From Clostridium sp. AT4 (lineage in GTDB: Bacteria > Bacillota > Clostridia > Lachnospirales > Lachnospiraceae): DNA of 64,000 bases. The notes beneath the pieces are model-generated. The model did not search any database, was not told the DNA's origin, and saw only the letters and a list, made by a program, of their open reading frames with translations. The position numbers and the translations under genes are program-made. Where the stretch lies: the NCBI RefSeq assembly GCF_001517625.2, contig NZ_LN999826.1, positions 62,001 to 126,000 of the forward strand. Reading direction: 5' to 3'. How positions within the stretch are numbered: the stretch's first letter is position 1; each line of letters starts with the position of its first letter. This document shows, in pieces, positions 35,774 through 64,000 of this stretch.

Positions 35774-36031
35774 ATAAAAAAATCGCCCTTATAAAAAGGA
35801 CGATTAAAAACCGTGGTACCACCTTAATTCCTGAATGAAATCCAGCTCATCTCCGCATCCTCTAATGCGTATCACCTGTAACGTGGCTCTGCTCCGGCGC
35901 TCCTACTAAACTTCAGTTTGCTTCTCCAGGATGATTTCATCCGTCAGGTTCAATGACAGCTCACACCAGCCGCTGTCTCTCTGAAAAATCCGCTGAGGAC
36001 TACTTGTTCCTATCAAATGAATTTTTTCTAT
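35774..36031 (-). ncRNA. T-box riboswitch, isoleucine-type, upstream of brnQ
   Basis: On the minus strand the leader holds an AGAGAG element, GGTG in the Stem I terminal loop, and GAA-ATC-A (specifier ATC at 35933-35935), which reads Ile. The T-box AAGGTGGTACCACGG is at 35811-35825; its UGGU would pair with a tRNA end carrying discriminator A. A terminator stem (35781-35788 with 35798-35805, using one G-U pair valid only in the minus transcript) and a U-tract follow. Uncharged tRNA-Ile should favour the antiterminator and allow brnQ transcription. Confidence 0.88.
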
Positions 36032-60954: not shown

Positions 60955-62307
60955 ATGAAAAAATCATATGAAATTGATATGTGCAATGGCCCGCTTTTAG
61001 GCAAGATCCTGCTGTTTTCCATTCCGCTGATGCTTTCCGGTATTTTACAGCTTTTGTTTAATGCGGCTGATATTATTGTAGTAGGAAGGTTTTCCGGAAG
61101 TACGGCGCTGGCGGCTGTGGGCTCTACCTCATCCCTGATCAATCTTCTGATCAACATTTTTGTAGGCTTGTCTGTAGGTGTAAATGTGCTGGTAGCCAGA
61201 TATTATGGCGGACAGAAGGAAAGAGATGTTCAGGAAACCATACATACGGCGGTTTTGACGGCCATTTTAAGCGGCCTGTTTCTGGTTGCGGTGGGAGAGC
61301 TTGCCGCAGGCCCCATGCTTCGGATCATGGGAACCCCGGAGGATGTGCTGGATCAATCTGTGCTCTATATGCGGATTTATTTCCTTGGAATGCCTGTTTT
61401 AATGCTTTATAACTTCGGCGCTGCGATCCTCAGAGCAGTAGGAGATACCAGGCGGCCTCTTTATTTCCTCTTTGCCGCCGGAGCGGTCAATGTGGTTTTG
61501 AATCTGTTCTTTGTAATAGGCCTTGGAATGGGAGTGGACGGAGTAGCCTGGGCTACTGTGATTTCTGAGCACATTTCCGCATTTCTTGTCTTTAAGAGCC
61601 TGATGGCGGAAGAGGGAATGATGAAGCTCCATCTAAAGAAACTTACCATTCATATGGATAAGCTGAAGCGGATTGTGAAGATCGGTCTTCCGGCCGGTAT
61701 GCAGGGCGCGATCTTCTCTGTATCCAATGTGCTGATCCAGTCCTCTGTCAATTCCTTTGGTTCTGTGGCCATGGCAGGCAATACGGCTTCTGCAAATATC
61801 GAGGGCTTTGTCTATACGGCTATGAATGCGGTTTATCAGACCAGCTTAAGCTTTACCAGCCAGAATCTTGGCGGAGGAAAGTACAGCCGTATTAATAAGG
61901 TAAAAAATATCTGTCTGGCTGTTGTTACGGCAGTGGGGCTGGTTCTTGGCCTGGCAGCAGTAGGCGCGGGCACTCATCTTCTGGGAATTTATTCTTCAGA
62001 CTCTGAGGTGCTTAAATACGGGATGCTCCGTCTGGAGATTATCTGTGGGACCTATTTTATCTGCGGGCTGATGGACTGTATGGTAGGAAGCTTGAGAGGA
62101 TTGGGATACTCGGTGATTCCCATGATCGTCTCTCTTACCGGAGCATGTGGTTTTCGTATTCTCTGGATTTTTACAGTATTTGCCGTTTACCGTTCACTGG
62201 CAGTTCTTTATCTGTCATATCCGGTATCTTGGCTCATTACGGTAGCGGCTCACATGGTTACCTTTAAACTGATCCGCAGGAAATTCCCCAAAGAAGATAT
62301 AAAATAA
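60955..62307 (+). CDS. MATE family multidrug/drug:cation antiporter
   Basis: 450 residues, 12 membrane helices in two MatE halves. The first half has LLLFNAADIIVVGRFSGSTA and GVNVLVARYYGGQKE, and the second repeats the plan with GLPAGMQGAIFSVSN and LGGGKYSRINKVKN. It uses a Na+ or H+ gradient to export cationic drugs or metabolites; the substrate is unknown. ACGGAGG precedes the ATG. It is divergent from mntP and followed, after an AT-rich gap, by the large noncoding RNA. Confidence 0.9.
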   Translation: MKKSYEIDMCNGPLLGKILLFSIPLMLSGILQLLFNAADIIVVGRFSGSTALAAVGSTSSLINLLINIFVGLSVGVNVLVARYYGGQKERDVQETIHTAVLTAILSGLFLVAVGELAAGPMLRIMGTPEDVLDQSVLYMRIYFLGMPVLMLYNFGAAILRAVGDTRRPLYFLFAAGAVNVVLNLFFVIGLGMGVDGVAWATVISEHISAFLVFKSLMAEEGMMKLHLKKLTIHMDKLKRIVKIGLPAGMQGAIFSVSNVLIQSSVNSFGSVAMAGNTASANIEGFVYTAMNAVYQTSLSFTSQNLGGGKYSRINKVKNICLAVVTAVGLVLGLAAVGAGTHLLGIYSSDSEVLKYGMLRLEIICGTYFICGLMDCMVGSLRGLGYSVIPMIVSLTGACGFRILWIFTVFAVYRSLAVLYLSYPVSWLITVAAHMVTFKLIRRKFPKEDIK

Positions 62308-62427
62308 TAAATATTCTGAAAATTAGAAGCAAATACCCAAATATAACAGGTGAATATTATATAAAAATATAAACAATCACAATAAATATACACAATTTAT
62401 AAAAAGACAAAAAATAATTAAAAATTA

Positions 62428-62461
62428 CAAAAAGAGTCTTGACAAATCAGGGCTCTTTTTG
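62428..62461 (+). terminator. Inverted repeat enclosing the ncRNA -35 box (possible MATE terminator)
   Basis: A perfect 9-bp repeat CAAAAAGAG (62428-62436) / CTCTTTTTG (62453-62461). The TTGACA of the ncRNA promoter lies in its loop. It may terminate transcripts from the MATE gene just where the next RNA begins. Confidence 0.55.
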
Positions 62462-62467
62462 TATAAT
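62439..62467 (+). promoter_or_regulatory. Consensus promoter of the large noncoding RNA
   Basis: Perfect TTGACA (62439-62444), a 17-bp spacer and perfect TATAAT (62462-62467). About 110 bp of very A-rich DNA upstream could act as an UP element. The expected start is near 62474. Confidence 0.9.
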
Positions 62468-62473
62468 AAAGTC

Positions 62474-63100
62474 AACAAAAGAGAAGAGAACACGAGATAC
62501 AAAAGAGAATAAGGAGTTGTAGACAGTCAACTCAATGTAATAAAATCTAAGCAAAGGAGGTACGGACCACCAGAAAGAGAACGTTCGTTTCATTTATAAG
62601 CTAAAGTGATTTAGTTATAGATGAAACAGGAAAAGCACTCTGTGAGAGTAACTGCTCATACATAGTACAGACAGATGAAACGGAAATTGATTTAAGAAAC
62701 AAAAGAAAGTCCAATCGATTGGTAAAAGAACTGCAGTCTTAAAGAAACGAAAGAGAATGTCTGTAATAAAAGATGGGAACAAGCAGATGATCGTATTTTC
62801 AAAGTGATCCATAAGCGTATCAAAGGCAATAAATGCCCGGTCTGGTGATATGACGAGAAAGTATCATCAGGACGGAGAGAGATACCGGATCAAAGAAAGA
62901 AAAGCAAGGTGGAAAATAGATCCGAAGCAAGTGAATATACAAAAGAGAGCAGAAGAAAACCAGAGTGGATACAATTAAATATAGAGTCACAAAAGAAACA
63001 ATTGTTTCGAAAGAGAGGCTTGGTCCAATGGACGAGATAGTTAAAAGACGGATATCGTAATCGAGAACGTGGTTAGTCAAAGATTCGATATCCGTCTTTT
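62474..63100 (+). ncRNA. Large structured noncoding RNA, about 625 nt (ROOL-like candidate)
   Basis: The stretch between a perfect promoter and a 15-bp terminator is A/G-rich, has stops in every plus-strand frame, and has no RBS-plus-ORF worth the name. Hairpins include GAGTTG/CAACTC around 62512-62531, a compound arm GTTTCAT (62587-62593)/ATGAAAC (62621-62627) capped by CTAAA-GTGA-TTTAG (GNRA-type tetraloop), GGCA/TGCC at 62825-62837, and GTCTGGTGATA (62840-62850)/TATCATCAGGAC (62862-62873). Two palindromes, CCAATCGATTGG (62711-62722) and GAAACAATTGTTTC (62995-63008), could form hairpins or intermolecular contacts. Size, purine bias and free-standing position suggest an ornate large RNA such as ROOL; OLE is less likely as no OLE-associated gene is next to it. 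The family assignment is inference. Confidence 0.75.
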
Positions 63101-63108
63101 GTTGTATT
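63043..63108 (+). terminator. Terminator of the large noncoding RNA
   Basis: A perfect 15-bp stem AAAAGACGGATATCG (63043-63057) / CGATATCCGTCTTTT (63086-63100), extended by AATC/GATT past a bulged T, is followed by GTTGTATTT. The A-tract on the other side could also let it stop the convergent radical SAM gene. Confidence 0.88.
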
Positions 63109-63120
63109 TAATATAGGGGA

Positions 63121-64000
63121 TCACAGACCTTTTAGATCAAAGGGCGGCGTATATTCTTCTTTTGCGCTGCTTTTTTCCTGTATAAATCCCTCAGTAAGTC
63201 CCAGAGAGAGCGCTGCATCCACTACCTTCTGGTATTCATAGGAGGTGATCCGACGATTGATATCCGGATGGTCGCAGCTATGGTAGAAGGGGGTGTACTG
63301 GCTTAAAAGGCTTAACAGGTACTGGCCTTTTGGAAGCTCTCTGCTGACCCATTCCATCAGGGCGATGGAATCATCCCTGTGTCCGGGGAGAACCATATGG
63401 CGCAGGATTACGCCTTTTTTCATAAGCAGGAAGGAAGGCTGGGAGGGCTCCTCAGGGGCGTGTTCCTCAAATACCGGAGCGCCTGTCTGAAGGATCATCT
63501 GATAGATAGCACGGGAAGCGGCTTCAAAGTAGTTCCCGCAGTTTGACAGACGGGCAGAAAGAGCGCTGTCATGGTACTTTAAATCAGGAAGCCAGATATC
63601 TACATAATCCTTTAAATATTCTACGATCTCAGGACGTTCATAGCCGCCGCAGTTATATACGATCGGGATCGAAAGGCGGGAGCGAACCTGATCCAGAGCA
63701 GGAAGGATTGAGGGGAGAAACTGAGTGGGGGTGACAAGATTGATATTATAGGCCCCCTGATCTTCCAGACGGAGAAAGATATCAGCCAACTCATTAGAAG
63801 TCAGCTCCTTTCCGAATTGTTCGCTGCTGATGGGATAATTCTGGCAGAAGCAGCATTTAAGGGTACATCCGGAAAAAAAGACGGTTCCGCTTCCGCCTCT
63901 GGCCCACTCCGGCCCGCTCAGACAGGGTTCTTCCCATTTGTGGAGTGCTGCCCTGGCAGCCTTTAACTGAACGGTACATCCGCAGTAGCCGGTTTTGCGG
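63121..64000 (-). CDS. COG1313-type radical SAM protein (PflA-related), cut by window edge
   Basis: The frame is open past the apparent start at 63789 to the right edge, so the protein's N-terminus lies outside. The extended translation contains KTGYCGCTVQLKAARAALHKW, a Gly-rich segment, then the radical SAM cluster motif C-T-L-K-C-C-F-C (CxxxCxxC) followed by QNYPIS, and downstream VTPTQFLPSILPAL, IVYNCGGYE and DIWLPDLKYHD. This matches the uncharacterised PflA-related family COG1313, predicted to activate glycyl radical enzymes or modify a partner by SAM cleavage. It ends 20 bp after the ncRNA terminator on the opposite strand. Confidence 0.85.
   Translation of the reverse strand, partial: RKTGYCGCTVQLKAARAALHKWEEPCLSGPEWARGGSGTVFFSGCTLKCCFCQNYPISSEQFGKELTSNELADIFLRLEDQGAYNINLVTPTQFLPSILPALDQVRSRLSIPIVYNCGGYERPEIVEYLKDYVDIWLPDLKYHDSALSARLSNCGNYFEAASRAIYQMILQTGAPVFEEHAPEEPSQPSFLLMKKGVILRHMVLPGHRDDSIALMEWVSRELPKGQYLLSLLSQYTPFYHSCDHPDINRRITSYEYQKVVDAALSLGLTEGFIQEKSSAKEEYTPPFDLKGL

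Follow-up and report, generated by a model that had tools for sequence, protein, structure and literature searches.

A probable new family of large structured RNAs with Shine-Dalgarno modules in Lachnospiraceae

The window, a stretch of 64,000 nucleotides from Clostridium sp. AT4, contains near its end a region between two convergent genes. The upstream gene, which from its sequence is presumably of the efflux type, lies on the plus strand and ends at 62307, and the downstream gene, which we take to be radical-SAM-like, lies on the minus strand and ends at 63121. The region between them contains the following features:

62439-62467, plus strand: sigma-70 promoter TTGACA-17-TATAAT, matching the consensus at 12 of 12 positions
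62474-63104, plus strand: inferred transcript of a structured RNA gene, about 631 nt, based on the promoter and terminator positions, the fold, and homologues in the genus
62544-62571, plus strand: Shine-Dalgarno module AATCTAAGCAAAGGAGGTACGGACCACC without start codon (match to model R1 at 62542-62588, 44.3 bits)
62553-62561, plus strand: Shine-Dalgarno core AAAGGAGGT, complementary over 9 nt to the 3' end of the 16S of the same genome (duplex -13.9 kcal/mol)
62587-62627, plus strand: conserved hairpin P2, arms 62587-62599 and 62615-62627, covarying in the genus
62838-62874, plus strand: conserved hairpin P3 with the apical loop TGACGAGAAAG at 62851-62861, covarying
62971-62985, plus strand: conserved motif ACAATTAAATATAGA, a run of invariant or nearly invariant columns of the genus alignment
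63013-63018, plus strand: Shine-Dalgarno sequence GAGAGG of a micro-ORF, 9 nt before the ATG (duplex -12.0 kcal/mol)
63028-63060, plus strand: micro-ORF MDEIVKRRIS*, running into the terminator stem and kept in relatives
63043-63057 and 63086-63100, plus strand: arms of the terminator hairpin, a 15-bp perfect stem with compensatory changes in the genus

The promoter and the perfect stem are present as the original prediction described them, and the size of about 625 nt given there is close to that of the inferred transcript. The promoter is the best of four promoter-like sites with at least 9 of 12 matching positions between 61800 and 63400 (shuffled sequences contain 3.8 such sites). In the family, promoters with 11-12 of 12 matches precede the first module in 80 of 96 distinct loci, compared to 1.3 in shuffles. 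The terminator has a 28-nt loop and a tail that is T-rich but interrupted, and it is absent from the list of a simple scanner because this scanner accepts only loops of 3-8 nt. The compensatory changes in its stem were found within the genus Enterocloster. The minimum free energy of the inferred transcript is -141.2 kcal/mol (z -6.65), and none of 20 shuffles folded as low. The plus-strand ORFs listed within the unit are only 31-43 codons long. The earlier claim that there is no plausible plus-strand ORF through 63100 overlooked the micro-ORF, with its Shine-Dalgarno sequence 9 nt upstream and its conservation in relatives.

A free-standing RNA of this length was supposed to be most likely ROOL (presumably RF03087), which is of similar length, free-standing, and structured as well. 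The ROOL covariance model stayed below the gathering threshold in the window, and in the Rfam scan of the whole window with 4,227 families, ROOL included, there was no match at gathering score on the RNA at 62439-63100. The only Rfam match at the gathering threshold in the window was a T-box leader at 35793-36026 on the minus strand. A permissive scan of 62300-63200 (E<=10) gave nine weak matches, with neither ROOL nor any other named large RNA among them. Forty fetched loci, analysed as two sets of 20 and including two weak, chance-level blast matches (L019 and L025), did not show any family at gathering score on the RNA itself; one TwoAYGGAY RNA and one tRNA were found, both off the RNA. The models of OLE, GOLLD, HEARO, raiA, RNase P, tmRNA, and 6S, all named together with ROOL in the original prediction, matched neither in the window nor in the 40 loci. 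OLE and raiA are large structured RNAs of Bacillota like the present one, which has no Rfam match. ROOL is encoded by phages and prophages, often near tRNA islands, whereas the present RNA is chromosomal and no link to phages or tRNA islands was seen. Exact matches of the module were absent from viral contigs, blastn against plasmid and phage records did not give any match, and the 64-kb window does not contain a tRNA. In contrast to ROOL, the RNA also has Shine-Dalgarno modules and a micro-ORF. ROOL, the other Rfam families, and a phage or plasmid origin were thus rejected, and the evidence supports what the prediction had held in reserve, a new large RNA class. A literature search by sequence string and topic did not reveal any account of this Lachnospiraceae RNA, the comparison covering publications other than a published set of 224 structured-RNA candidates.

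Homologues were detected by blastn in all 16 other Enterocloster genomes among the 98 genomes searched. A repeated module was then recognised from short matches in other genera, and the sequence-only model R1 was built from 25 of its copies (cut-off E<=0.01). R1 matches are present in 193 of 397 Lachnospiraceae genomes and in all 17 Enterocloster genomes, the own genome included in both counts. In the order-level scan (295 genomes) 33 of 39 matches belong to Lachnospiraceae and the other six have E-values from 1.2e-4 to 4.4e-3; in the phylum-level scan (398 genomes) 3 of 12 matches belong to Lachnospiraceae, the nine outside having E-values of 0.003-0.01. The lowest E-values outside the family were obtained in the genomes G622 and G559. 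The outside matches are near chance because about 0.01 false matches are expected per genome and the E-values are rough. A stricter pattern detected at least 119 stretches in named genomes, and the 80 matches listed carry either Lachnospiraceae genus names or unspecific names (some of them Ruminococcus, Clostridium, Clostridiaceae, Eubacteriaceae, and Eubacteriales). A so far undescribed, Lachnospiraceae-specific RNA family seems to be the best explanation, and it is very probable that a new structured RNA family exists.

Members of the family contain one to about ten modules. R1 finds one in the window, two in L021, and four each in L028 and L030, and a loose pattern counts nine in L207 and, for L206, ten in its main RNA. 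Neighbouring tandem modules are mostly spaced by 51-59 nt, with gaps of at least 96 nt also occurring. By reading, the longer members have in addition a GACGAGAAAG hairpin and a AAUUUAAUAUAGAU-like motif. A second R1 place is found in 5 of the 17 Enterocloster genomes, and those that were read represent a second, shorter RNA type (L199, L200, L201, L202, and L210, the latter with a diverged module), in which the module follows soon after the promoter and is itself followed by the GACGAGAAAG hairpin. A micro-ORF was not found in L199-L202. Another subtype (L032, L035, L058, L214, and L217) has the segment GACAGACGCGA before the module, with a close variant in L058, and has a micro-ORF as well, for example MIEESK* or MIEGSK*. 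The gene neighbours of the members vary.

The description as a free-standing large structured RNA gene is backed by conservation and covariation. RNAalifold predicts 60 pairs for the 17 genus sequences, 18 of these with compensatory changes. In P2, 98.6% of the cells are paired and four pairs changed on both sides; in P3 six pairs changed on both sides. Taken together, 97.7% of the cells of P2 and P3 are paired compared to 90.1% in shuffles, and ten pairs changed on both sides compared to 5.2. None of 500 shuffles was as high on all five measures, and slid registers were only 38-47% paired. This test is favoured in part because the structure was derived from the same alignment, which does not by itself explain the compensatory changes. 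The hairpin with the GTGA loop, which had been singled out in the original prediction, is absent from the minimum free energy fold and lies in a region that is variable within the genus, and is therefore not a defining part. An outer helix of the module (AAAUUUAAG/CUUAAAUUU) convinces by eye in a few lineages but lacks general support and was rejected; when partners were shuffled, 24 of 200 shuffles did equally well in one test and 9 of 200 in another.

The GACGAGAAAG-loop hairpin, represented in the window by P3, covaries across genera. Its copies were collected as GA[CT]GAGAAAG loops near modules, and the 37 distinct copies form 6.2 of 7 pairs on average compared to 4.05 with shuffled partners (0 of 1000 as high); three registers were tried, of which one paired and the two others did not. 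Elsewhere, this loop has 12 copies in 2.37 Mb. In L056 and L107 the loop apparently caps the terminator hairpin and not an internal hairpin. The main rival explanation is an OLE-like ribonucleoprotein scaffold, in which a dedicated protein would bind both the GACGAGAAAG hairpin and the GGUAYRGWCC core of the module, any resemblance to Shine-Dalgarno sites being secondary. In its favour are the position of the loop on covarying stems and the extent of the core, which reaches beyond the Shine-Dalgarno sequence itself. However, the variants AAAGGAUGGU, AAAGAGAGGU, and AAGCGGAGGU alter the sequence and yet keep the pairing with 16S better than permuted columns do, and a protein site would leave the micro-ORF unexplained. 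We regard the scaffold as rather unlikely, with still an appreciable chance of being correct.

The element that defines the family is the strong Shine-Dalgarno module (AAAGGAGGUACGGACCACC), which is mostly start-less and of which relatives carry up to about ten copies. The 16S tail of the own genome reads GGATCACCTCCTTTCT. The 322 module instances collapse to 256 distinct ones, of which 255 form a duplex of -6 kcal/mol or better with the 16S tail. The mean pairing is -12.7 compared to -11.75 in column-permuted modules. With the true tail the gain over permuted columns is -0.91 (z -13, or z -8.7 on 141 distinct segments), compared to +0.12 +/- 0.30 for 30 shuffled decoy tails; these and the following z values are too high because kin sequences were treated as independent, a bias that the decoy control shares. 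The presence of a Shine-Dalgarno sequence is partly selected because the models and patterns used contain it, so that only the excess over permuted columns and decoys counts. Since 152 of the 256 modules came from loci fetched with a pattern containing the Shine-Dalgarno sequence, the test was rerun on the other 104. All of their 85 distinct segments pair at -6 or better (mean -12.07 compared to -10.89 in permuted columns; z -8.7, decoys +0.04 +/- 0.30). The pattern-fetched modules alone give z -4.7 on 63 segments. Thus, the modules pair with the anti-Shine-Dalgarno sequence beyond chance. Of 43 best-case sites at genes in the window, 4 equalled or surpassed the window's module (-13.9), the gene segments being 17 nt long as against 26 nt. 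The hairpin around the Shine-Dalgarno sequence folds only weakly on its own (-4.3 kcal/mol, z -0.86), and sequestration is therefore not claimed. The purine-rich module could also bind something other than 16S.

Most of the modules do not carry a start codon. Without any rule imposed, the start slot of the 256 modules reads CCN in 179, ATG in 52, TTG in 13, and something else in 12 cases, and never GTG or CTG, leaving 191 without ATG or TTG. The base preceding the slot, which does not pair at start slots, is T in 51 and A in 14 of the start slots, in contrast to A in 161 and T in 18 of the CC slots. The pairing with 16S is stronger in the start-less modules (-13.5) than in those with a start codon (-10.1). 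The family shares with the sites called STAB-SD (PMC7509114) the strong Shine-Dalgarno sequence without a start codon. STAB-SD are sites in the 5' regions of mRNAs (PMC7509114), whereas the present modules, often in tandem, belong to a free-standing structured RNA. Internal modules can themselves form start-stop ORFs in some relatives, for example MA*, MKT*, and MYT*. Many modules of L206 (about 1857-2526) and of L207 (minus strand, about 474-1040) are of this kind, such as ATG TAC ACA TAA and ATG GCT TAA.

The window's member has a single start-less module and, in addition, only the site of the micro-ORF (ATG GAC GAG ATA GTT AAA AGA CGG ATA TCG TAA). In a majority of members, directly in front of the terminator, a Shine-Dalgarno sequence, usually 8-10 nt, precedes a start codon (ATG or TTG), and the stop follows after a few codons, mostly right at the stem or inside its first bases, as in MDSIV*, MDEIA*, MIEESK*, and MIEISG*. 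Under a strict rule for the start and a stop at the stem, 95 of 161 3' ends (the 166 rows minus the five chance rows L071-L074 and L079) contain such an ORF, compared to 5.5 +/- 2.6 (maximum 13) in 100 dinucleotide shuffles of the upstream 50 nt. A looser rule gives 110 compared to 14.7. The shuffles for micro-ORFs and for modules leave shared ancestry in place. Some of the 66 3' ends that miss the strict rule are wrongly chosen terminators. By another, separate looser rule, 109 of all 166 rows have an ORF and 57 have none, a count that takes in wrongly chosen terminators and matches on the opposite strand. The ORFs are mostly 5-10 codons long; within Enterocloster, several species, that of the window among them, have a frame of ten codons, and in others it ends after five. 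The 85 distinct micro-ORFs start with ATG (55), TTG (29), or GTG (1) and stop with TAA (39), TAG (27), or TGA (19), a few of them probably being wrong picks, and those of the strict rule have ATG 45, TTG 22, TAA 31, TAG 19, and TGA 17. What the rule requires is a start and a stop; that these exchange is no part of it. The micro-ORF bears a translation-like signature with start and stop at fixed sites, where they exchange with their synonyms. The amino-acid variety is below that with permuted third bases in 5 of 9 codon columns, with shared ancestry left in place: two of four codons in the five-codon class and three of five in the six-codon class are reduced, the rest not. As this signal for selection on the peptide is mixed, only the start/stop signature is claimed.

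The start-stop ORFs with strong sites, 2-6 codons in length, recall bacterial minigenes, whose ORFs are likewise very short and preceded by Shine-Dalgarno sites (PMC8708949). The present ORF differs in its setting, a large structured RNA at whose terminator it lies. A translation inhibitor of this type would release peptidyl-tRNA and tie up ribosomes or tRNAs. It is hard to reconcile with the 191 modules lacking ATG or TTG in the start slot, and given the consensus-strong promoter one would expect constant toxicity, so that this function appears unlikely. A micro-ORF abutting a terminator also looks like an attenuator, and the RNA might be a leader encoding a peptide that controls the downstream gene. 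However, according to mechanical ORF calls in 100 clusters the downstream gene lies on the same strand in 48, on the opposite strand in 37, and is undetermined in 15, and in the window it is convergent. A cis-acting leader or attenuator was therefore rejected as a candidate and is very improbable; given the mixed orientation, an action in trans or directly on the ribosome is most likely.

As a trans-acting antisense RNA or sponge, the RNA might bind mRNAs through its GGACCACC segments. These are conserved among the start-less modules, but the module type with start codon lacks them, and we consider this function improbable. CsrB has repeated short motifs in one RNA. The present family resembles the CsrB/RsmZ sponges and TwoAYGGAY (RF01731) in this respect, and the module can read AYGGAY, with ACGGAC in the module of the window, as would be needed for a sponge of CsrA. 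These RNAs have a fixed GGA loop in place of a Shine-Dalgarno module, though, and some modules of the present family read ACAGAC or AUAGUC. The RNA is also present in 17 of 17 genus genomes whereas CsrA was found in 10 of 17, some of the other seven carriers being incomplete assemblies. A covariance-model match to TwoAYGGAY or the CsrB clan over the RNA was not obtained in the window or the fetched loci. A sponge for CsrA is accordingly disfavoured and scarcely credible as the general function. In L023, a TwoAYGGAY RNA at 1162-1327 on the plus strand is separated by about 570 nt from a module on the opposite strand, perhaps by coincidence.

It has been reported that start-less strong Shine-Dalgarno sites stabilise transcripts via ribosomes without productive translation, and the ermC and ompA transcripts are stable without start codons given a strong Shine-Dalgarno sequence, as stated in a review (PMC7509114). 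Because such sites are reported to stabilise mRNAs, docking of 30S subunits or whole ribosomes is judged to be the likeliest function of the RNA, a reading from sequence to which we would give an even chance. Each free-standing RNA would be produced from its own strong promoter and end at its own terminator, the start-less modules would dock 30S subunits, and the site of the micro-ORF would dock whole ribosomes. The RNA might then be a sink for ribosomes or 30S subunits, or its lifetime and 3' end might signal the availability of ribosomes. More tentatively, and with a clearly better chance of being wrong than right, the start-less sites, often in tandem, may hold 30S subunits along a structured scaffold while the micro-ORF at the terminator seats a ribosome on the 3' end, which would couple formation or decay of the RNA to the supply of free ribosomes. 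The large conserved domain is unexplained by ribosome docking.

To our knowledge, only few classes of very large bacterial RNAs have been described, and an RNA built as an array of ribosome-binding sites would, if true, be the first natural class of this kind that we know of. The motif model finds the RNA, which is not covered by any Rfam family, in about half of the sampled genomes of Lachnospiraceae, which are frequent inhabitants of the mammalian gut. Already the micro-ORF, mostly 5-10 codons long, abutting a terminator and exchanging its start and stop codons, represents a conserved translation signal of an unusual kind. The parts of the RNA point to the ribosome and thus provide a clear hypothesis that can be tested, something that most large RNAs lack.
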